From Candidatus Iainarchaeum sp. (GTDB taxonomy: Archaea; Iainarchaeota; Iainarchaeia; Iainarchaeales; GCA-2688035): a DNA stretch of 64,000 bases. Both the position numbers and the translations under genes were made by a program. A model generated the notes under the pieces. The model was not told the origin of the DNA and made no database searches. It saw only the letters and a list, made by a program, of their open reading frames with translations. Shown one piece after another: positions 7,209-54,937 of this stretch (position 1 is the first letter of the stretch; the number at the start of each line of letters is the position of its first letter). Location of the stretch: NCBI GenBank assembly GCA_017610175.1, contig JAFCCO010000004.1, forward strand, positions 18,206 to 82,205. Direction: 5' to 3'.

Positions 7209-8162
7209 TTAGCCCCTTACTTCCCTTTTTTGCGGCTCAACAAATTTCATTCCAAGCGCCTTGAAAACCTCTTCCTCGGTTTTGCCTGCAACAACTTCCT
7301 CGCCCCTAAACAGGCCGTACTCATTTAGCTTAAGCCCTTTTTTGATTGCAATTCTTCTTATGGATATGTTAAACTGCTTGCTGCCGGTAAAATAAAGAAG
7401 GGCCGCTCCCCACTGCTCGGGCTTTACCGCACGAAGGTCAACCTGAATCCCTTCGCCTGTCCTAATGCTTGACTTTGTGGACCCCTTCATTATAACCTCT
7501 GAAACAGGCTTTAGTGAAGTGAAAAGGTCCATCACTTTCTTCGGCTTGGTTGTTGAAACAAGAACATCCACGTCCCCGATTGTTGGTTTCATTCTGCGAA
7601 CCGAACCCGCAATCTCAATTCGTTTTACGGCCCTGCTTTTTTGCATCGCCGACTTGAATGTTTTGGCCGTTGCAATCGCTTCGGCAAGGGGAATTCTCCC
7701 GCCTGACTCCGCAATCGCGATGTTTTTCAAAATCTGTGCCTCACTTTTCTCACCAAAGCCCTCAAGCCCGCTTATCTTGTGCTGCTCTGCCGCTTTCTTC
7801 AAAGACTCAATGTCTTTGACCCCAAGCTTTTCAAAGAGAATCTTTATTTTTCTTGGGCCAAGCCCTGGAACGCGATTGAGTGAAGCAATGTCAACCCCTG
7901 ATTTTTTGCGAAGCTTGGCAAGGCTCTCCACCGCCCCTGTTTCAATGAACTCAATTATTTTTTGGGCGAGCGCCTTTCCAACCCCTGGAATTGCTTCAAG
8001 CGCCTTTTCTCCACCGCGCTTGTAAATTAGTTCAACCGGCTCGGGAATGTTTTGCAGGTTAATTGCCGCAGTGCGGTAAGCTCGCGGTTTCCACGCAACA
8101 TTCTGCATTTCAAGAATGTCGGCTATTTCAAAAAATATTTTTGCTAAAGCCTCATTTAGCAT
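7209..8162 (-). CDS. Family X DNA polymerase-like protein without PHP domain
   Basis: HhH motifs (IPGVGKALAQKI, VPGLGPRKIKILFEKLGV), nucleotidyltransferase AGSVRRMKPTIGDVDVLVST, C-terminal FTGSKQFNISIRRIAIKKGLKLNEYGLF; ends before any PHP module. Confidence 0.85.
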   Translation of the reverse strand: MLNEALAKIFFEIADILEMQNVAWKPRAYRTAAINLQNIPEPVELIYKRGGEKALEAIPGVGKALAQKIIEFIETGAVESLAKLRKKSGVDIASLNRVPGLGPRKIKILFEKLGVKDIESLKKAAEQHKISGLEGFGEKSEAQILKNIAIAESGGRIPLAEAIATAKTFKSAMQKSRAVKRIEIAGSVRRMKPTIGDVDVLVSTTKPKKVMDLFTSLKPVSEVIMKGSTKSSIRTGEGIQVDLRAVKPEQWGAALLYFTGSKQFNISIRRIAIKKGLKLNEYGLFRGEEVVAGKTEEEVFKALGMKFVEPQKREVRG

Positions 8163-16303: not shown

Positions 16304-17953
16304 TTAAATCTTTGCCGCTGCGGCCCTGTCGGCAAAAATGCCCGCTCCAAAATGCGGTCGGAGAACTGCTGCAGGACAGCCTTTAACCCCGCCCTTCAAC
16401 GCACACCTAACCGCCTTTGCCTTGTTTTTCCCCGAAGCAAGAAGCAAAATGCTGCGGCTGTTTCCCACAATGGTTTTCAGGCCAACAGTAAGGGCCTGTG
16501 CGGGAGCAATTCCATCCTTAAAACCCCCGCCGTTTACTTTCCTCGTTTGCTTTGAAAGCCTTACAACACGGGTTGCACTTTTCGGGGAACTTCCGGGCTC
16601 ATTGAATGCAATGTGGCCGTTTTGCCCAATTCCCAGAAGGCAAAGATCAATCTTAAAATGTTTAATTGCCGATTCGTGGGCACGGCACTCCCTTTTGAGG
16701 TTGCCAATTGAACCATCCAGAAGGAAAACGTTCCTGTGCCTTGCCCTCACTTTAAGCAAAAAGTGTTTCATAAGAAAGTGGCTGAAGCTGTTTTTGTTTT
16801 CAGGAGAAAGCCCTGCATATTCATCAAGGGCAAAGAACCTCACATTTCTGAAATCAACTTCGCCCCGCTTGCTTGCACCCACAAGAAGGCTGTAAAGTTT
16901 CTTTGGGGTTTCACCCGTTGGCAAAGCAATTGATGCGTTGGGTTTTCTGTTAACAAGTTCTATTACTTTGGCGGCTGCGGCCTTGCTCAGCTCACTGTGA
17001 TTTTTGAATACCGAAACAATGGGGCTTGAATTTGAGCTGATAAATTTCATTAAGCCCTTGCCCTTTGCGGCAACAAGACCGTGCGCAACAATTGTTTTTG
17101 ATGCAACAAAGTTCCCTGCACGCATGCAGTTAAAAAGTGAGAATCTGTTCATCAGGCCAAACACAAACCCCGCATTGAATGCGTCACCCGCCCCTGTTGT
17201 ATCAACAGCCTTTGCTTTAATTGCGGGAACATCAACTGCTTGCGCCCCCTTTACAAACAGGCTCACCCCAAGCCTGCCCCTCTTCAAAATTACCGCGCCG
17301 GTCACTTTCTTAAGCAGGCTCTGCACCCTTGCAGTTTCTGAATTTCCCTTTACAATGTGCTTCAGCTCAACCTCGTTAGTGAAAAGGAAATCAATAAACG
17401 GAAAGAATTTGTTAAGCGTCCAAATGTTTGCGGTGTCAAAGCAGGTGTCAAAGCACACGATTGCTTTCTTTGCCCTAAGTTTTTTTAGCAACGGAACAAA
17501 GCCGGCGCGCAACTTCTTTAGATGATAGAAGCCACCAAAGAAAACCACGTCATCGGCGCGGACTTTTGATAAAATCCGCGATGCGACATCTGAAGCTGTA
17601 ATTCCTGAAAGGCAATTCTTTTTTGAAAGAATTGCTCTGCCCCCGTCTTGCCTGATTGATATTACACTGAATGCATTCCCTTTAGTGCTTTCCACAAGGG
17701 AGAAGCCAACGTGTGCCTTCTTCAATCCCTTTTTCAGAAATGATGTTGCAAAGTCTTTTCCAATTGCACTAACAAGCACCGGCTCCAACCCAAGCTTTGA
17801 GGCGAAGACCGAGAAGTTTGCGGCATTTCCCCCTATTGAAAAATCAAGCGAGTTAAGCGCGTGCTCTTCACCAAAAACAGGTCGGGACAAAATGCCCTGC
17901 AGGACATCCACGCAAAGATCCCCTACCGCAAAAAGCCTTCTTTCATGAGCCAT
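16304..17953 (-). CDS. Fusion: PfkB/ribokinase-family sugar kinase + glucosamine-6-phosphate deaminase (NagB-like)
   Basis: N-terminal PfkB motifs (GGNAANFSVFASKLG, VDTTGAGDAFNAGFVFGL); C-terminal NagB motifs (FALDEYAGLSPENKNSFSHF, LLGIGQNGHIAFNEPGSS, ALTVGLKTIVGNSRSILLLASGKNKAKAV) in one uninterrupted ORF. Confidence 0.9.
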   Translation of the reverse strand: MAHERRLFAVGDLCVDVLQGILSRPVFGEEHALNSLDFSIGGNAANFSVFASKLGLEPVLVSAIGKDFATSFLKKGLKKAHVGFSLVESTKGNAFSVISIRQDGGRAILSKKNCLSGITASDVASRILSKVRADDVVFFGGFYHLKKLRAGFVPLLKKLRAKKAIVCFDTCFDTANIWTLNKFFPFIDFLFTNEVELKHIVKGNSETARVQSLLKKVTGAVILKRGRLGVSLFVKGAQAVDVPAIKAKAVDTTGAGDAFNAGFVFGLMNRFSLFNCMRAGNFVASKTIVAHGLVAAKGKGLMKFISSNSSPIVSVFKNHSELSKAAAAKVIELVNRKPNASIALPTGETPKKLYSLLVGASKRGEVDFRNVRFFALDEYAGLSPENKNSFSHFLMKHFLLKVRARHRNVFLLDGSIGNLKRECRAHESAIKHFKIDLCLLGIGQNGHIAFNEPGSSPKSATRVVRLSKQTRKVNGGGFKDGIAPAQALTVGLKTIVGNSRSILLLASGKNKAKAVRCALKGGVKGCPAAVLRPHFGAGIFADRAAAAKI

Positions 17954-18008: not shown

Positions 18009-18605
18009 ATGAAAAAGGCGTTAGTTGTGGTCGCACACCCTGATGACGAAACTATTTGGTGCGGCGGAACAATATTGTCAAATCCAGACAGGGCTTGGAC
18101 AATAATAAGCCTTTGCAGAAAAGACGACCCGGACAGGGCACCCAAATTCAAAAAAGTGTGCGCAAAACTGAATGCAAAATGCGCGATCTCAAACCTTGAT
18201 GATGAAAACGTTGAGAAGCCTGTTGCACTTGAAGAGATTAAGTCACGGGTTGAGTCAATGCTTGCAGAGCTTAATGCGGGGAGTGAATTTGATTTTATTT
18301 TCACGCACGGCGCAACCGGTGAGTACGGACACCGCAGGCACCGCGAAGTTCACCGCGCAGTTATCGAACTGCTTGGCTCCAAGAAGCTTCGCGCGCACAA
18401 AGTTCTCTTCTTCAACTACAAGTTGGACGCGAGTGACGCGTTCTGCACACCGGATGAGCGCGGCGCGGCGCATGTCGAGCGGCTCGGCAACGAGATTGCG
18501 CGAAAGAAATGTTTATTAATCACTTCAACGTATGGATTTAATGAGAAAAGCTTTGAAACGCTAAGCGCACAAAGCAAAGAAACATTTAAAGTGGTTGATC
18601 GGTGA
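18009..18605 (+). CDS. PIG-L/LmbE family deacetylase
   Basis: VVAHPDDETIWCGGTI, FIFTHGATGEYGHRRHREVHRAV. Confidence 0.9.
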   Translation: MKKALVVVAHPDDETIWCGGTILSNPDRAWTIISLCRKDDPDRAPKFKKVCAKLNAKCAISNLDDENVEKPVALEEIKSRVESMLAELNAGSEFDFIFTHGATGEYGHRRHREVHRAVIELLGSKKLRAHKVLFFNYKLDASDAFCTPDERGAAHVERLGNEIARKKCLLITSTYGFNEKSFETLSAQSKETFKVVDR

Positions 18606-18606
18606 A

Positions 18607-19746
18607 ATGAAAAGCCTTGTTTTGTATCCATATCCAATGGAACTTGACGGAGTAAGCATCCAAGGGGCAATGCTCCACCGCGGACTCGTTGAGAACGGTG
18701 TTGAGTCTCTTGAGTGCGACCGCGAAGCCGACTTTGAAAAGGAATGGGTTTACAAAAGTTTCAAGCCCGACGTCTCAATCGGAATTGGGTACTGGGGCGA
18801 CACTCCTACTATTATTGAAAATCCAATGCACCACGGAGTGACACCGGTCCCGTGGCTTAATGCGGACGGTTGGGTTGCAAACTACCACGATGTGCTTAAC
18901 GATTTGCCCCTTATTATGGTTACTAGCCACTGGGTGAAGCACACCTACAATCGCGATGGGGTGAGCAACAAAAATCTTGAAGTAATGCCCATCGGGATTG
19001 ATATGGATGAAATGAGCCCCCTGCCCAAAGACCATCAAAGCGTCCAACAGATTAGAAAAATGCTTCGCATAAAACCGGAGCAGAAAATGATTCTTACAAT
19101 AGGTGGGGACACAACAAGCAAGGGCTTCCAGGAAGTGCTTCATGCACTGGGCAAAATTGACAAGGAATTTGGCGACTGGGTTTACGTTGGCAAGAGCTGG
19201 GAATGCAGGTCACCCTACTACCATTACAAAGAGGAACTCAAGATCATGCGCGATCTTGGAATTAGGAGAAAGGTTCGTTTCCTTGACGGTCCGATGTCAA
19301 GAAATATTATGAGGGCGCTGCTTAGCGCGTGCGATATTTACGCCGCCCCAAGCAGAATCGACGGCTTCGGGATGATTCAGGTTGAGGCACAGGCATGCGG
19401 AACGCCGGTTCTCGGAATTGACAGCATGGGAATCAAAGACACGGTAATTCACAACAAAACAGGATTGCTTGCAAAAGTTGGAGAGGAAACAAAGCTTACC
19501 GAAGAGTGGGCTTACAGATGGCACGGATTCAAAAAGAAGCACAAGATTAAGTTTGACGAACCAAAAACCTTTGCGGTCAAAGCCGATGTGGACGATTTAT
19601 CAAAACACCTGCATAAGATGCTAACCGAAGATGAATTCAGGGCAAAGCTTGGAACACAGGCAAGAGAACACGTTGTCAAAAACTTTGAATACAGGCATGT
19701 TGCAAAGCAAGTTGAAAACCTGATTCAGAAAAAGCTTCATCTTTAG
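18607..19746 (+). CDS. Glycosyltransferase, GT4-like
   Basis: GGDTTSKGFQEVLHALGKI, ACDIYAAPSRIDGFGMIQVEAQACGTPVLGIDSMGIKDTV (E-x7-E region); starts 1 nt after the PIG-L stop. Confidence 0.88.
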   Translation: MKSLVLYPYPMELDGVSIQGAMLHRGLVENGVESLECDREADFEKEWVYKSFKPDVSIGIGYWGDTPTIIENPMHHGVTPVPWLNADGWVANYHDVLNDLPLIMVTSHWVKHTYNRDGVSNKNLEVMPIGIDMDEMSPLPKDHQSVQQIRKMLRIKPEQKMILTIGGDTTSKGFQEVLHALGKIDKEFGDWVYVGKSWECRSPYYHYKEELKIMRDLGIRRKVRFLDGPMSRNIMRALLSACDIYAAPSRIDGFGMIQVEAQACGTPVLGIDSMGIKDTVIHNKTGLLAKVGEETKLTEEWAYRWHGFKKKHKIKFDEPKTFAVKADVDDLSKHLHKMLTEDEFRAKLGTQAREHVVKNFEYRHVAKQVENLIQKKLHL

Positions 19747-20885
19747 AAGAAAGGAACTTTTTTTGTTGCAACACTTTCAGATGCAAGAATAAACGCACCC
19801 GCACTCCAGGCATGGTAACTGCTTCCGCCGGCCTTCCTTGTTCCGGGGTGCACCCATTCATTAAATTCCCACTTGTAATTAACGCCAAGCTTGTTGCAGC
19901 GCAAAAGCTTTTTCAACTCATGCTCTGCCCTTTCAAACCGCTCAGCCTTAACAAGCGCGGTAACATAAAAGCCCCCAACATACGGCCAGATGCCTCCATT
20001 AATATAATAATTTGGCTTTGCCGCAAGGCATTTGCTGAAATAATCCTGCCACTCCTTTGCCCCACGCCTGATTGGGGGATAAATAACGCGAACAGGATAC
20101 GGCTTGTCAATCCCCTTTTTGTCAACAAAGTCAAGAATTGATTCTGCTTCCTCTTTGCCCGCAAGGCCTCCGCAAACGGCAAGCATGTTTCCAAGGGAAT
20201 CAAACCATTTTTCCTGCTCGGTAATCCCGTCATGCCCCTTCCATCTCCAGGGAAGAAAGTAGCCGAGTTTTTTATCAAACAGGTTCACATGCCTGTGGTC
20301 CCCCATTGCGGCGGACTTCACCTTTTTTGCAAGGGAAGTTTTGTCAAACAATTTCAAAGCAGAGTAATACATTGCAATCGAGTTTACTGTGTGCCCGTAC
20401 TTGTGGGGGAAGCAATCCTGCCAGTCACTTGTCGGGTGCTGTTCAGGCAAATAGTCCTCGCCTGTGTCCTGGCAAAGCAGCCAGAAGAACGCTTTGTCAA
20501 TCTCCTTTTTTCTTTTTCTAAGAAGCGAACGGTCCTTGTAGGCCAAAGCATATGCCTTCATCCCAAGCAGCCACCAAAGTGTGCTGTCAATTGTTGCAAA
20601 AGTTGACTGCTTTCTTCTCTTGGGGTCCCAGTTGTCAACCGCGTTTGGAATCTGACCAACAGCACTCTGGTTCCTTACAAGTGTTTCAAGAGTTATGCTA
20701 AACTGGGTCTTGAACTGCTTTTCTGGGTCGGCAACGCTTGCCCCAATCAGGCCAATCATACTGTCCCTGGAAAACACCATATTGTAGCCGCCCCTGCCGC
20801 CACTTGCGTGCATTCCATGCGGGGTGCTGCATTTTTGCAGGGCAATTCTTGCCCTCTTAAGTGCTTCTTCCTGCTGACCCATCAA
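19743..20885 (-). CDS. (alpha/alpha)6-barrel glycoside hydrolase (GH100/debranching-enzyme-like)
   Basis: YNMVFSRDSMIGLIGA, DSTLWWLLGMKAYA, TSDWQDCFPHKYGHTVNS, NYYINGGIWPYVGGFYVTAL, WSAGAFILA. Confidence 0.7.
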   Translation of the reverse strand: MMGQQEEALKRARIALQKCSTPHGMHASGGRGGYNMVFSRDSMIGLIGASVADPEKQFKTQFSITLETLVRNQSAVGQIPNAVDNWDPKRRKQSTFATIDSTLWWLLGMKAYALAYKDRSLLRKRKKEIDKAFFWLLCQDTGEDYLPEQHPTSDWQDCFPHKYGHTVNSIAMYYSALKLFDKTSLAKKVKSAAMGDHRHVNLFDKKLGYFLPWRWKGHDGITEQEKWFDSLGNMLAVCGGLAGKEEAESILDFVDKKGIDKPYPVRVIYPPIRRGAKEWQDYFSKCLAAKPNYYINGGIWPYVGGFYVTALVKAERFERAEHELKKLLRCNKLGVNYKWEFNEWVHPGTRKAGGSSYHAWSAGAFILASESVATKKVPFF

Positions 20886-21592: not shown

Positions 21593-21630
21593 TTTTCTTT
21601 TGGCAAAGCTTTCCTTTTTCCAAAAGAAAA
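21593..21630. repeat. 11-bp perfect inverted repeat in the tRNA-Pro 5' leader
   Basis: TTTTCTTTTGG (21593-21603) and CCAAAAGAAAA (21620-21630), ending 6 nt before the tRNA. Confidence 0.7.
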
Positions 21631-21636
21631 GGTTCT

Positions 21637-21711
21637 GGGACGGTAGTATAGCTTGGTCTAGTATTCGGCGTTCGGGGCGCCGTGACGGGGGTTCAAATCC
21701 TCCCCGTCCCA
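21637..21711 (+). tRNA. tRNA-Pro (anticodon CGG), CCA not encoded
   Basis: Acceptor GGGACGG/CCGTCCC; anticodon arm CGGCG-TTCGGGG-CGCCG (anticodon 21673-21675); T-loop TTCAAAT; discriminator A. Confidence 0.92.
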
Positions 21712-21788
21712 TTCCCGAGCTTTGGCGAGGAAACACTTTTAAAGTAGTTAGACCTTATTTTGTTAAACAGTTTTTTGGTGGGTTGGGT

Positions 21789-23492
21789 ATGAAAGGAAAA
21801 GACATCCTTAATGAGATTAGTTCCACATCCAGTGGCGAATTTTACACACCTATCCCGGAGGGCTACAAGGCGGGCAAAACCAAATATGTAATTATTACCG
21901 GCAGTGTCATGTCAGGGGTTGGAAAGGGAACCATTTCAAGCAGCCTGTGCAAGTGCCTGCAGGACCGGGGCCTGAAAGTTGAACCCATCAAGCTTGAAGC
22001 CTACCTAAACGTTGATTCCGGGACATTGAACCCATACAGGCACGGCGAAGTTTTTGTGCTGGATGACGGTTACGAAACAGACCTTGACCTTGGAACCTAC
22101 GAGCGAATGCTTGACAAGAACCTTACAAGAGACCACTTTGTCACATCAGGGCGAATTTACCAGACAATAATTGAGAAAGAGCGTGCAGGCAAGTATCTGG
22201 GACGCGATGTGCAGTTCATTCCACACGTAACAGGTGAAATCAAAAGCATTGTCAGGAACATGGCAATGAAAAGCAAGGCAGACATCATTTCAATTGAGAT
22301 TGGTGGGACAGTCGGCGATTATGAAAATATGTTTGCCCTCGAAGCACTGAGGGAACTGCAGTATGAAGAGGGCAGGGAAAACGTTTGCTTTGTAAACATC
22401 ACTTACATAATGGAACCAAAGAGTTTGGGCGAGCAAAAAAGCAAGGCGGCACAGCTTGGAATAAAGCGCCTGATTGCAATGGGAATTCAGCCGGACATTA
22501 TTGTCTGCAGAAGCCAGTCAAAACTCAAACAAAACATTCGCGAAAAAATCAGTCTCAACACAAACGTCCCGCTTGACCGCGTAATCGGAGTGCACAACGT
22601 TGAAAACATTTACTCACTGCCCTTAACACTGCGCGAAAGCGGCTTTGACCAGAGAATTCTTGAAATATTTGAAATGGACAAGAAATTCAAGGCAAACGGA
22701 AACTCCGGATTAAAGGAATGGGTTAAGAACACAAGTGTGACAAGCTCAAAGGACCCGATTGTTGTCGGGATTGCCGGAAAATACACCGAGGGCGGAGACG
22801 CCTACATCAGCATTCTTAAGGCACTTGAGCACTGCAGTTTTGCACTAAACCACCGTGTTGAAGTCAAGTGGATTGAGTCCACAAAAATTGAGAAAGACCA
22901 GATAAAAGTTGACGAGGCAATTAAGGGAGTTGATGGGATTATTGTGCCCGGGGGCTTTGGCTCAAGAGGGGTTGAGGGAAAAATAAAGGTCGCACAGTAC
23001 TGCCGCGAAAACAATATTCCATACCTTGGGCTTTGCCTGGGATTCCAAATCGCACTCATTGAATTTGCAAGAAACGTTCTGAAGCTTGAGGACGCAAACA
23101 GCACAGAATTTGAGCCAAAGGCAAAGCACCCGGTTGTAGACCTGCTCCCTGAGCAAATGGACATAGAGGGACTGGGCGGAAACATGCGTTTGGGAGGCAG
23201 AAACGTTGAAGTAAAAGAAGGGACAATTGCCTCAAGAATTTTTAACAAGGCAAAAAGTGTCAGAAGAAGGTTCAGGCACAGGTTTGAATGCAATCCGGAT
23301 TACATCAAGCAGTTTGAGGAAAACGGAATCGTGTTCTCGGGAAAGGCTCCAAAGCAACCGATTATGCAGATTTTGGAAGTTCCTTCACTCAAGTTTTTGA
23401 TGGCTTCACAGTTCCACCCTGAACTCACCTCAAGGCCGCGCCACCCGGACGAAATGTTCCTCGAATTTGTGAAGAACTGTGCTAAAAAGTAA
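21789..23492 (+). CDS. pyrG: CTP synthase
   Basis: TKYVIITGSVMSGVGKGTISSSL; glutamine amidotransferase YLGLCLGFQIALIEFARNV. Start placed at MKGKDILNEIS because the longer ORF reads through the tRNA. Confidence 0.97.
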   Translation: MKGKDILNEISSTSSGEFYTPIPEGYKAGKTKYVIITGSVMSGVGKGTISSSLCKCLQDRGLKVEPIKLEAYLNVDSGTLNPYRHGEVFVLDDGYETDLDLGTYERMLDKNLTRDHFVTSGRIYQTIIEKERAGKYLGRDVQFIPHVTGEIKSIVRNMAMKSKADIISIEIGGTVGDYENMFALEALRELQYEEGRENVCFVNITYIMEPKSLGEQKSKAAQLGIKRLIAMGIQPDIIVCRSQSKLKQNIREKISLNTNVPLDRVIGVHNVENIYSLPLTLRESGFDQRILEIFEMDKKFKANGNSGLKEWVKNTSVTSSKDPIVVGIAGKYTEGGDAYISILKALEHCSFALNHRVEVKWIESTKIEKDQIKVDEAIKGVDGIIVPGGFGSRGVEGKIKVAQYCRENNIPYLGLCLGFQIALIEFARNVLKLEDANSTEFEPKAKHPVVDLLPEQMDIEGLGGNMRLGGRNVEVKEGTIASRIFNKAKSVRRRFRHRFECNPDYIKQFEENGIVFSGKAPKQPIMQILEVPSLKFLMASQFHPELTSRPRHPDEMFLEFVKNCAKK

Positions 23493-50124: not shown

Positions 50125-52827
50125 TTAATCCTTACTTCGTACTTTTGGTTTGCCTGAAACGCAAGATTTTTCTGCAATCTTTTCAGCAGTAACGTTTCTT
50201 GCACTTATAAAAACCATTGGCTGCCCTACAATTGTAATTACCTTTGCATTTGTTTTAAAGTGCTGGTACTTTTTACCGTCGTGCCGGTACCTGTATTCAA
50301 GTCCGACTATTGACTTTTTGTTTTTCAGCAGCCCTGCCCAGGCCTTGACAACTGCCGCCTTGTCTTCAGGGTGAATTTGGGGAAATGAGTCCGGTCCCGG
50401 CAATTTTGACCCGAATATTTTTTTCCAAGCATTGTTGGCCCAGATAGTTTTTGCCTTAAGGTCTGTTATTGAAATCAGGTCGTGTGAACCCTCAGCCAGT
50501 TTCCTGAACTTTTCCTCACTTTCCTTTAATTGTTCTTCGGCTTGCTTTTTTTCCGTGACATCCCTAGATACCCCTTCTAACCCAATAATTTTGCCTTTTT
50601 TGTCGTATACCGAAGTGAAAGTGAATTCCTCATAAACTATATGGCCGTCTTTGTGGAATTGCCTTAACTCAAATCTCTTTGGGGGTGCTCTTCCTTTTTG
50701 CAAGTCCAGAATCATCTTTTCTATTTTTGGCAGGTCATCAGGGTGAGTTATTTTCCTGTAAAATAGAGGGTCATTGTAATAGTTTTCAGGAGTGTATCCT
50801 AAAAGTCTTTTCACAGACGGACTAATAAAGGTATATCCTTTTTCTAAATCCAGCCTGAACATGACATCCAAGGAATTAGTTATTAGAAAACTCAGTTTCT
50901 TTTCGCTTTCCCTTAATTTCTTTTCAGCCTTCTGTTGCTCGGTTACATTGTTCCCGATTGCAATCAATCCAGTGACCTTTCCATTTTTATCTTTTAGAAC
51001 TTTATCAGCCCATTCAATCTGAATTTCTTTTCCTTTTTTTGTAATAATTGGGTTAGTGTTTATTTGTGGTTTTGTTGCTTTTAATCTTCTTTTGAAAATT
51101 TTTCTAATTTTATTATAATCCTGTTTGGGCAAAAAAGTGGTAAACCAATCTTTTCCCTTTACTTCTTCTAATTTGTAGCCTGACACCTTTTCCATATACG
51201 GGTTAAACTTAACAATTTTCCCACCAGGATCTAAAACAAGCAGTATTGCTTGCGCAGTATCAATTATGCCCTCAGAAAAGTCTTTTTCTTTTTTCAAATC
51301 CTCTGCTGTTTTCTTTCTCTCAGTTATGTCCCTTGCGATTGCCATCGCAGTGTATTCGTCTGCAGATTCCCTGACTGAAACCGCAAGCTCAATAGCGACT
51401 TTTCTCCCCTCCTTTGCAAGCACGTTGGTTTCGATTGGTGTTTCAGAGAGGGTGCCCTTTCCAACAGCAATAAGGGACGCAAGCTTCTGCTCCATTTCAG
51501 AAACAGTTTTCTCGGAAAAAAGTGAAAGCACGCTTTTTCCCACCATTTCGCTTTCACTGTATCCAAATACCTGTTTTGCCGACGGGTTCCAGGTTGTGAT
51601 TATGAGACCTGAGTCAAATGAGAATATGGGGTCAACAGAGATTTGGACAATGTTTAAATACTTTTTCTCCGCCTCTTTCTTTGCCTTTACTGCTTCACCT
51701 AACCCAATTTCTTCCTTGGACATTCCTGTTCTAACAATTGCAAGCTTGAGGCTTGCAAGAACCCTGCTGAATGAATTGGAGAGTTGCTGAATTTCGTTAA
51801 CGCGGCTCTTTTCAAGTTTGACATCAAAGTTTCCCTTTGTTATTTTCTCAACAGCTTTTGAGAGCTTGATTAAGGGGGTTGAAACAACAACTGAGAGAAT
51901 GAATCCGATTATTGCGCTAATTAGCCCTGCAAACAATAGCGCAAACAAGATGAACGCACGAATTCTTTCAAAAGGCTCGAATGCTTCGCTTGAATCCCTT
52001 TTGACAACAAGCCCCCAGTCAACCAGCTCAACGTATTTGGTAACTGCAAAAACCAATTCGCCACGATAATCTCTGTATTCAATGAAAAGGTCTTCTTTCC
52101 CAAGCAGAGCCTGTGTAATTGGCACATTAAGCCATTCTTTTCCAACACGCCGGGTGAATGCGGCGTCCTTGTCAAATCTTAAGGGGGTAATAAAGAGCGC
52201 GGCGCCGTCCTCAGCCCTCATTGCAATGACTGTTTCTCCGCTTTTTCCCACCCCGCTGTAATCGCTTACGACCGAAAGAATTCTTTCAGCATCTGCCTCA
52301 ACCAAAAGCACGGCAATTGTTTTGTTTTCAGACACAATTGGCCCTGCAACCAGCAGAAGAGTTTGCCCTTCGTCCCCCTGCATTACTGTAATGCTTATCT
52401 CTTCAAGCCCACTAGTAAAAAATTCTTCGCCCTTACAGCTTTGCCCTTCCTGCATTGCATCGGTCGATACCACAACCTGCCCGTCAAAATCAATTACGCA
52501 CAATCTCCTAAACTTAGAAACAGATTCCTTTGCATCCAAAAGCAGGGTCTTAACAAACTCTTTGTCTTCAGGCTCTTCTTTCTCAAAATAAATTGAGAGA
52601 TGCTGCGAGAATGGGGAATTGATGGAAATCAGTTCAACTCCCTCAATGTAATCATTCAATGCCTCGTTAAGCCTTGCCACCTGAATTGATGAAACATATT
52701 CAAGTTCTGCATTCACACACTCCAAAGCGTTTTCCTCTGTAGCCTGCAGGATTGCAAAGCCAACAAAAGCCATGGGCACAACTGCAAGAAGCACAAATGC
52801 CACAACCAAAATTAGCCTAAGCTTCAT
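50125..52827 (-). CDS. Membrane sensor: Cache-like domain, HAMP, multiple PAS domains, no histidine kinase domain
   Basis: Two TM helices flanking an extracellular domain; HAMP; several PAS/PAC units ending ITERKKTAEDL, VTEQQKAEKKL, VTEKKQAEEQL; protein ends after the last PAS. Start moved to MKLRLILVV. Confidence 0.85.
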   Translation of the reverse strand: MKLRLILVVAFVLLAVVPMAFVGFAILQATEENALECVNAELEYVSSIQVARLNEALNDYIEGVELISINSPFSQHLSIYFEKEEPEDKEFVKTLLLDAKESVSKFRRLCVIDFDGQVVVSTDAMQEGQSCKGEEFFTSGLEEISITVMQGDEGQTLLLVAGPIVSENKTIAVLLVEADAERILSVVSDYSGVGKSGETVIAMRAEDGAALFITPLRFDKDAAFTRRVGKEWLNVPITQALLGKEDLFIEYRDYRGELVFAVTKYVELVDWGLVVKRDSSEAFEPFERIRAFILFALLFAGLISAIIGFILSVVVSTPLIKLSKAVEKITKGNFDVKLEKSRVNEIQQLSNSFSRVLASLKLAIVRTGMSKEEIGLGEAVKAKKEAEKKYLNIVQISVDPIFSFDSGLIITTWNPSAKQVFGYSESEMVGKSVLSLFSEKTVSEMEQKLASLIAVGKGTLSETPIETNVLAKEGRKVAIELAVSVRESADEYTAMAIARDITERKKTAEDLKKEKDFSEGIIDTAQAILLVLDPGGKIVKFNPYMEKVSGYKLEEVKGKDWFTTFLPKQDYNKIRKIFKRRLKATKPQINTNPIITKKGKEIQIEWADKVLKDKNGKVTGLIAIGNNVTEQQKAEKKLRESEKKLSFLITNSLDVMFRLDLEKGYTFISPSVKRLLGYTPENYYNDPLFYRKITHPDDLPKIEKMILDLQKGRAPPKRFELRQFHKDGHIVYEEFTFTSVYDKKGKIIGLEGVSRDVTEKKQAEEQLKESEEKFRKLAEGSHDLISITDLKAKTIWANNAWKKIFGSKLPGPDSFPQIHPEDKAAVVKAWAGLLKNKKSIVGLEYRYRHDGKKYQHFKTNAKVITIVGQPMVFISARNVTAEKIAEKSCVSGKPKVRSKD

Positions 52828-54937
52828 TGCCCACCCCCTTGCTTTTTTTGGGCTTGCCCTTGCCTGCCTTGTTTTCTTCCGCTTTTTTGGCCGGCTCTGC
52901 GGGCTTCTCTGTTTCAAATATTTTGCGAATCCTTGAGAGGATTTCCCCCGCCTGCTCATCGCTTAAAACCCCGCTGCTTTGCAGTTCAGCCACATAGTCT
53001 GAAAGGGACTTGTACCTTAGTCCCTTAACCCTTATCTGCTCAAACTCCTCGTCCCCAAGTGCACCAAGGTATTCGACAAAAACCTGCCTGATTTTCTTTT
53101 CCACATCCTCTTTGGGTGAGAAAAGCAGCTTGATTGGCAGGATTTCCCTAACCGGTTTCAGAGGGACGGTGAAGTAGAAAGTGCTTCCCTTCCCCTTCTC
53201 GCTCTCCACCCAGATTTTTCCGCCCTGGGACTCAATTATGCCGCGGCAGATGGTAAGCCCAAGCCCTGTTCCCCTGAATTTTCTGTAAATTGTCTGCTCT
53301 TCCTGGAAAAATGGCTCGAAAACCCTGGCAAGGTTTTCAGGCAAAATGCCCGCCCCCTGATCCTTTACACTGAATGCGATTCCGCTTCGCTTCAGTTCTG
53401 CCTTAATTGTTATTGTGCTTTTGGGAGGGGAAAACTTTTTTGCATTGTTTACAATGTTTCGCAGAACCTGCATTGCCCTGTCGGGATCAACCTCAATTTT
53501 GGGAAGCTTGCCAACTTGGAGGTTTAGTTTAATCTGCTTTTCAGGCAGGAAGGCATCCATTTCCTTAACCAAGTCTTGAACGGGGGCTGTTAGGCTTGCG
53601 TGCACAAAGTTGAACTTAAGCCTTGCCGCCTCAATTCTTGATATTTCAAGGAAGTCAAAAATTATCTTGTCAAGGCGGGTTGTGTTTCTAAGAATTATTT
53701 CCAAAGAATCGCGCTGCTTCCTGGGGATTTTCCCAAAGTAACCCTCCAAAAGCATCTGCAGCTGCGCCCTCATCGGAGTCATCGGGCTTCGCAGTTCGTG
53801 CGAGGTTATGGAGAGGAATTCTGTTTTTGCCTTCTCCAGCTGTTTTCGCTGCGACTCCATTTTATCAAGTGCCGAGGTTGTTTTGTTAAATGCATTCCCA
53901 AGCTGCTCCATTTCATCGCCTGTCCCTATATTGACCCTTGTGGAAAAATCCCCCTGCTCAACCTTTTCGGTTGCGTCGTGAAGCTGCTTCAATGGCTCGG
54001 AAAGGGATCTTGCAAAGAACCATGTTGCGGAAACCGAAATTATCAGAACAATCAAAAGCACAAGAAGAACCTGGTTGCGCAGCTCAAACACCAAGCCAAA
54101 AACAACCTCCTCCGGAATGTGAACCAACAGAACCCAATCGTTTCCCTCAAAATCAAGGTGCCCTTGTTCGCGTGCAAACACAGCCATGTAAGGTATCTCA
54201 TCATGTGTGTGCCTGCTTCCCCTGCTCTCACCCTCAACAAACTGAATCTCGCTTGGGTATGTAAAGAAAATGTTTTCAGTAAGTATTCCCCTCTGGTTGT
54301 GGTTTGAAAACAGGATTAGGCCGTCGCTGTCAATTAAGTCAATCAGTATTGATTCCTCTATTTCCTTTCCATCCCCTTTTGCAACATCTGAAATTATTTC
54401 AAAAAGTCTTGCAAGCGGAACTCTTGAAACAACCAGGCCAAAGGCTTCATTGTTTTCATCCCGTACCTTTGCCGCAAAGTAAAGCATGGTGTCATCCAAC
54501 TGCTCGGAGCGGTAGAAGCCAATTGGACTGTCTTCCCCGCGCGCAACATCCCTCCAGTAGCCTGAGGCAGAGTGCTGCCCCCCAAGCCCGATTCCTGTTG
54601 TGCCCGCAACCCTCACTCGGTTGAGGTCAAAGAGGGTGATGGACGAATAAGTTTTGTAAATGTCCCTGTAGAAAATCAGGCGCTCAGTTATTTCCTTTGG
54701 CGTTGAGTCCCTTGAGGCTATTATGTTATCAGTTGACATAACCTGTATGTCTGCACGCCTTTCGTAGAGGGTTCTGTCGAGCTTGTCAATGGTTTGAACT
54801 GCACGGCCCTCAAACTCCCCAATTATTTTCTCTTCAAGAATCTCAATTGACGCACTGTAAATCGGAAAGAAGACGGCGATGCTTGTAAACAGCACAAGCC
54901 CCACAAGCAAGGCAACAAGTTTTGTAGCAAACTTCAT
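52817..54937 (-). CDS. Cache-HAMP sensor histidine kinase with C-terminal extension
   Basis: TM-Cache-TM-HAMP, HisKA LSITSHELRSPMTPMRAQLQMLLEG, HATPase GAGILPENLARVFEPFFQEE ... GTGLGLTICRGIIESQGGKIWVES; extra ~110-aa C-terminal region. Confidence 0.93.
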   Translation of the reverse strand: MKFATKLVALLVGLVLFTSIAVFFPIYSASIEILEEKIIGEFEGRAVQTIDKLDRTLYERRADIQVMSTDNIIASRDSTPKEITERLIFYRDIYKTYSSITLFDLNRVRVAGTTGIGLGGQHSASGYWRDVARGEDSPIGFYRSEQLDDTMLYFAAKVRDENNEAFGLVVSRVPLARLFEIISDVAKGDGKEIEESILIDLIDSDGLILFSNHNQRGILTENIFFTYPSEIQFVEGESRGSRHTHDEIPYMAVFAREQGHLDFEGNDWVLLVHIPEEVVFGLVFELRNQVLLVLLIVLIISVSATWFFARSLSEPLKQLHDATEKVEQGDFSTRVNIGTGDEMEQLGNAFNKTTSALDKMESQRKQLEKAKTEFLSITSHELRSPMTPMRAQLQMLLEGYFGKIPRKQRDSLEIILRNTTRLDKIIFDFLEISRIEAARLKFNFVHASLTAPVQDLVKEMDAFLPEKQIKLNLQVGKLPKIEVDPDRAMQVLRNIVNNAKKFSPPKSTITIKAELKRSGIAFSVKDQGAGILPENLARVFEPFFQEEQTIYRKFRGTGLGLTICRGIIESQGGKIWVESEKGKGSTFYFTVPLKPVREILPIKLLFSPKEDVEKKIRQVFVEYLGALGDEEFEQIRVKGLRYKSLSDYVAELQSSGVLSDEQAGEILSRIRKIFETEKPAEPAKKAEENKAGKGKPKKSKGVGNEA

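Follow-up and report, generated by a model that had tools for sequence, protein, structure and literature searches.

A single gene on the minus strand of the analysed stretch of DNA (hereafter the window, 64,000 nucleotides of contig JAFCCO010000004.1 of Candidatus Iainarchaeum sp.), lying at positions 16304-17953, encodes a protein of 549 amino acids in which a PfkB-type sugar kinase is joined to a NagB-type deaminase. With a probability that we put at roughly 0.6, the fusion is a bifunctional hexosamine 6-kinase/hexosamine-6-phosphate deaminase recycling an amino sugar to fructose-6-phosphate. Its parts belong to known families, of which their joint architecture within a conserved gene module represents a novel variation. 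Should the proposed function be correct, archaeal amino-sugar entry would proceed with kinase and deaminase on one polypeptide, in archaea with tiny genomes where neither a ROK nor an ADP-dependent hexokinase is recognisable. The de-N-acetylase, GT4 glycosyltransferase and glycoside hydrolase conserved in the same module point to an amino-sugar compound of these cells that has yet to be described.

Architecture and conservation of the fusion

The reading frame runs uninterrupted from its ATG start, and Pfam assigns PF00294 to residues 7-293 (E 4.7e-36, 125 bits, profile positions 4-295 of 302, exceeding the gathering score) and PF01182 to residues 321-534 (E 1.2e-21, 78 bits against a cut-off of 27). 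An AlphaFold2 model gave confident folds for both halves (mean pLDDT 91.8, pTM 0.78), connected by a linker of residues 294-316 (17006-17074, minus strand) that is helical at residues 298-308. A preliminary description of this DNA had proposed one ORF joining a kinase to a NagB-type domain, and both its coordinates and its architecture were borne out, the minus strand being the element missing from that reading; the motifs that it had singled out, VDTTGAGDAFNAGF, LDEYAGL and GHIAFNEPGSS, were all found in the ORF. The genome in question comprises 1.24 Mb in 34 contigs and is 90% complete, and the preliminary description had itself raised the prospect of an ORF joined by the assembly. An assembly-made or chance join was ruled out by the same fusion being present, intact and full-length, in 11 other independent genomes.

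The search for the fusion covered 143 relatives and was then extended to 75 genomes of the order and 87 of the phylum, all of one class. Full-length, stop-free relatives sharing 34-57% identity over about 545 amino acids were recovered from seven genomes of the window genome's own family, f1 (G001, G007, G011, G013, G015, G016, and G017), and from four of a second family of the same order, f15 (G031, G049, G060, and G067). With two further copies cut off at contig ends (G006 and G009) and one in two pieces and frames (G043), the fusion-bearing genomes number 15 in all, including that of the window. No fusion outside f1 and f15 was detected among the 87 phylum genomes or among 389 relatives reaching across the archaea. 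Bacterial coverage consisted of the PLSDB plasmids, where no match covered more than 80% of the fusion query, and a scan of genome contigs, which yielded an unrelated kinase only. A literature search retrieved no paper describing the fusion.

Both halves are under purifying selection. In two close pairs, the Nei-Gojobori method gave a dN/dS of 0.07 and 0.19 over the kinase half, and of 0.15 and 0.14 over NagB, low values showing that selection has maintained each of them.

A conserved four-gene module and its split forms

The fusion lies at one end of a four-gene module. Divergent from it is a gene for a PIG-L/LmbE-family de-N-acetylase (18009-18605, plus strand; PF02585), in which the AHPDDE and His motifs are invariant in 18 aligned members and for which no PDB match was obtained at E 0.001. 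This gene overlaps by 11 bp that of a GT4 glycosyltransferase (18595-19746, plus strand; PF00534), whose closest solved structure is the MshA-type 3c4q, followed by Tll1590 (6kih), with sucrose-phosphate-synthase-type structures further down. Convergent with the GT4 gene is one for a putative GH100-like (alpha/alpha)6 glycoside hydrolase (19743-20885, minus strand), whose match to PF12899 (49 bits) spans no more than part of the profile; its best fold matches by Foldseek were Anabaena InvB and InvA (TM 0.72, with an rmsd above 5), and its TSDW and FNEW motifs are invariant in the alignment.

The window has the complete four-gene order, as do G011, G013, G016, G015 (with the GT4 gene in two pieces), G001, G017, G060, G031, G067, and G043, and the same order is present in G004 and G010 with a kinase only in place of the fusion. 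The flanks of the module differ between the two families, consisting of a methyltransferase gene and often pyruvate oxidoreductase genes in f1 and of GH130 and GT4-fused genes in f15, which points to the four genes being a functional unit. The f15 neighbours (L047:8826-11006 and L049:98-1189) encode a GH130 enzyme and a GT4 protein extended by a long C-terminal portion. This pair also occurs in Sphingomonas plasmids beside genes for mannose-6-phosphate isomerase and mannose-1-phosphate guanylyltransferase; given this mannose-linked cluster, they were regarded as an adjacent system outside the module.

In the kinase tree, the module kinases form one clade (support 98/98), within which the fused f1 and f15 proteins constitute a subclade (96/87). 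The kinases of G004 and G010 fall inside the fused subclade, having been kept while the NagB half was lost, and that of G055, where kinase and NagB are split, falls inside the f15 group. The NagB tree resolves three groups, namely the f1 fusions, the module NagBs of f15 and f18, and the NagB-PIG-L proteins together with bacterial sequences. A single fusion event followed by losses would fit these placements, the root of the tree being unsure.

The split forms are informative in their own right. A separate orthologous kinase is encoded in eight genomes, seven of which carry a NagB elsewhere, the exception being G014, a genome only 78% complete. By the logic of gene fusion, this pairing of the separate halves, together with the 15 fused genomes, supports an enzyme of two linked steps; the retention of the kinase without a NagB half in G004 and G010 was counted against it. 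The separate NagB stays in the module in G034 and G055, the kinase being encoded elsewhere, and in G002, G008, G012, and G014 the separate kinase gene adjoins the GH100-like gene and is co-oriented with it. The unfused NagB of G034 (L070:5212-6588), positioned beside the PIG-L and GT4 genes at the module site, may show the arrangement that preceded the fusion.

Residues and likely substrates of the two halves

The kinase domain (residues 7-293; 17075-17935, minus strand) was read by aligning it with seven E. coli kinases of the PfkB family. The catalytic D257, within DTTGAGDAF, aligns with D255 of RbsK and D256 of PfkB, leaving the GxGD motif with its anion hole intact, and the substrate-side residues D16, N43, and N46 are likewise preserved. 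Foldseek matched this half to ribokinases, and the ribokinase-family assignment of the preliminary description is upheld by PF00294, motif, and fold alike. At the columns of Lys27, Arg90, and SGSLPxG in E. coli PfkB, the kinase half carries E, A, and GGHLKKL, and it therefore lacks both Arg90 and SGSLPxG, the two features common to PfkB and FruK. The absence of these phosphosugar positions indicates that the kinase probably acts on a free sugar rather than on a phosphosugar such as fructose-6-phosphate. Glucosamine, another hexosamine, and a second sugar that the GH100-like hydrolase would set free are all possible substrates as judged from the sequence.

Some guidance is offered by FrlD, the PfkB-family fructoselysine 6-kinase of E. 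coli, which has in common with the kinase half the GD.C.D and GGNAxN motifs of the sugar pocket and an equally placed His. FrlD phosphorylates an amine-bearing sugar at position 6, and the likeness was for this reason counted in favour of a hexosamine 6-kinase, albeit with a low overall identity, no stable grouping in the tree, and FrlB as the partner of FrlD. On the opposite side, a literature search turned up no PfkB-family enzyme characterised as a glucosamine kinase. The bacterial homologues of the kinase are located in generic sugar-transport loci or in contexts bearing no annotation.

The deaminase domain (residues 317-547; 16313-17005, minus strand) retains D377, N445, H447, E452, and K511 at the positions of D72, D141, H143, E148, and K208 of E. 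coli NagB, the Asn at position 141 being shared with the NagBs of Priestia and Paracoccus. Its best PDB match, both by sequence and by fold, is the monomeric glucosamine-6-phosphate deaminase NagB of B. subtilis (2bkv; TM 0.93 to the target, rmsd 1.3), a standalone enzyme of the same length and fold with the same catalytic Asp, His, and Glu and also Asn at position 141. A 6-phosphogluconolactonase was rejected on the grounds of this fold and of an NCBIfam pgl score (56.7 bits) far below that of nagB (196.1 bits), in agreement with the preference for a deaminase expressed in the preliminary description. The equivalents of D72, H143, E148, and K208 are kept in every module NagB read that far, and this half looks catalytic.

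A stricter assignment to glucosamine-6-phosphate, also made in the preliminary description, fared less well, standing as to NagB likeness and catalytic residues but failing on two other points. The score of 196.1 bits does not reach the cut-off of the nagB equivalog TIGR00502 (236.9 bits), and G476 occupies the position of Arg172 of E. coli NagB, a residue that we take to contact the substrate phosphate and that is present in B. subtilis NagB. Whether fused or separate, each of the 17 module NagBs carries a residue other than Arg here (G, K, V, or Q), in contrast to the 12 non-module NagBs compared (nine from the same archaeal order and three bacterial), every one of which has kept it; Arg172 is thereby retained in the NagB-PIG-L copies of the very genomes that encode module NagBs, and NagBs of another archaeal family have it too. 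The missed cut-off and the consistent loss of Arg172 weaken the claim of a strict glucosamine-6-phosphate deaminase and were counted against the preferred explanation. Coupled with a kinase specificity that cannot be read from sequence, the loss of Arg172 suggests that the substrate may be a hexosamine other than glucosamine. The module-specific disappearance of a binding residue of NagB also makes for a direct test of a change in substrate choice within an enzyme family.

A proposed route, its alternatives, and its parallels

In the preferred reading of a bifunctional kinase/deaminase, the GT4 enzyme and the PIG-L protein would build or trim a glycoside containing an amino sugar, with the PIG-L protein exposing the amine, and the GH100-like hydrolase would cut the glycoside to free the amino sugar. 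The kinase half would then use a nucleotide donor to phosphorylate O6 of the free hexosamine, which is most likely glucosamine, and the NagB half would deaminate and isomerise the resulting hexosamine-6-phosphate to fructose-6-phosphate and ammonia. Consecutive steps of amino-sugar entry had already been envisaged in the preliminary description, and the catalytic residues of both halves and the selection acting on them speak for this; glucosamine is a candidate substrate of the kinase. To our knowledge, GT4 and GH100-like partners are absent from the known routes of glucosamine entry, which was counted against the proposal.

The genome leaves the fusion kinase few rivals for hexosamine entry, as no ADP-dependent GK/PFK could be detected in it, nor any recognisable kinase of the ROK type. 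Two other clear PfkB proteins are encoded, one ribokinase-like and the other resembling nucleoside/ribose-1-phosphate kinases, and GlmS is present for the reverse direction. The same genome further encodes a second NagB, fused to PIG-L (G000:C20; L066:7476-9056, and 1339-2919 of L002), with orthologues in several relatives, which ties deacetylation to deamination. NagB is thus joined to the enzyme of a neighbouring amino-sugar step twice in one genome. This NagB-PIG-L (LmbE) protein, similar to NCBIfam PRK02122, differs from the kinase fusion in having its partner at the C-terminal rather than the N-terminal end, in belonging to a separate NagB clade, and in keeping Arg172.

The loss of Arg172 bears upon two of the alternatives. 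The deaminase may have shifted to another amino-sugar phosphate, for instance galactosamine-6-phosphate, mannosamine-6-phosphate, or that of a modified hexosamine, with the kinase matching it; this sub-case of the preferred explanation is somewhat unlikely, the confinement of the loss to the module NagBs being set against catalytic residues and a best profile that are those of glucosamine-6-phosphate deaminases. AgaI of E. coli, formerly regarded as a galactosamine-6-phosphate deaminase, likewise has no Arg172. It is nevertheless a poor guide, since galactosamine use by E. coli requires neither AgaI nor NagB (PMC3668189). A catalytically dead NagB half, acting as a binding or regulatory domain for the kinase, would accommodate both the missing Arg and the kinases persisting alone in G004 and G010, but is the least probable of the readings considered in view of the conserved D72, H143, E148, and K208 and a dN/dS of about 0.15; the preliminary description had contemplated such a loss of catalysis, and these observations speak against it.

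The remaining alternatives concern the kinase and its place in the route. GH100 invertases release fructose, and it is conceivable, if unlikely, that the two halves work in parallel, the kinase being a fructokinase or other hexokinase for the second sugar of the hydrolase and the deaminase taking the amino sugar, so that both would deliver fructose-6-phosphate. The hydrolase is nearest to GH100 invertases in fold and sequence, the GT4 enzyme matches structures of the sucrose-phosphate-synthase type and BshA-type enzymes about equally well, the kinase has 3hj6, a structure annotated as a fructokinase, as its second-best match in the PDB, and the separate kinase adjoins the hydrolase gene in four genomes. 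However, the kinase reads GGNAAN where 3hj6 has GGSPAN, it is the deaminase and not the kinase that remains in the module in two genomes, and likeness to invertases does not establish the specificity of a putative hydrolase. An analogous order of steps exists in other amino-sugar routes, tagatose-6-phosphate kinase acting after galactosamine-6-phosphate deaminase, and a genome with no detected ADP-PFK could accommodate a PfkB-type 6-phosphofructokinase converting the fructose-6-phosphate formed from glucosamine-6-phosphate to fructose-1,6-bisphosphate. Such an order is highly improbable here, the aligned module kinases lacking the phosphosugar-kinase residues of E. coli PfkB (K27, R90, and SGSLPxG) and the NCBIfam 1-PFK/pfkB scores not exceeding 44.5 bits.

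A bolder version of the preferred explanation, and a distinctly doubtful one, holds that the module is responsible for both the synthesis and the recycling of an intracellular glycoside of an amino sugar, one new to archaea, such as a de-N-acetylated disaccharide resembling sucrose or mycothiol. The fusion would then serve as its dedicated salvage enzyme, Arg172 having been lost because the substrate is not glucosamine-6-phosphate.

Among known systems, the nearest working parallel is the chitin route of Thermococcus kodakarensis (Dac, TK1764; GlmA, TK1754; GlmD, TK1755; cited in PMC6579819), with a deacetylase, a glycoside hydrolase (a glucosaminidase), and a glucosamine-6-phosphate deaminase in series, all of them products of separate genes. 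In this archaeon Dac is of the PIG-L type, the deaminase of the SIS type, and the kinase ADP-dependent, and the route is not known to include a GT4 enzyme or a fusion. In plasmids of Deinococcus peraridilitoris and Deinococcus sp. QL22, the gene for a GH100-like hydrolase has that of a ROK kinase as its neighbour, or else is accompanied by genes for a PfkB kinase and a beta-N-acetylglucosaminidase, with no fusion and no PIG-L or GT4 gene annotated in the stretches read.

Elsewhere in the window, the gene at 7209-8162 encodes a DNA polymerase of family X (beta-type) that has thumb, palm, and helix-hairpin-helix domains. The CTP-synthase-like ORF listed at 21600-23492 begins upstream of a tRNA-Pro (cgg) gene at 21636-21712 and overlaps it, its true start probably being downstream. 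Adjacent large sensor genes at 50125-54937, one multi-PAS with HAMP and the other a histidine kinase with Cache/HAMP, are notable for an archaeal genome of 1.24 Mb.
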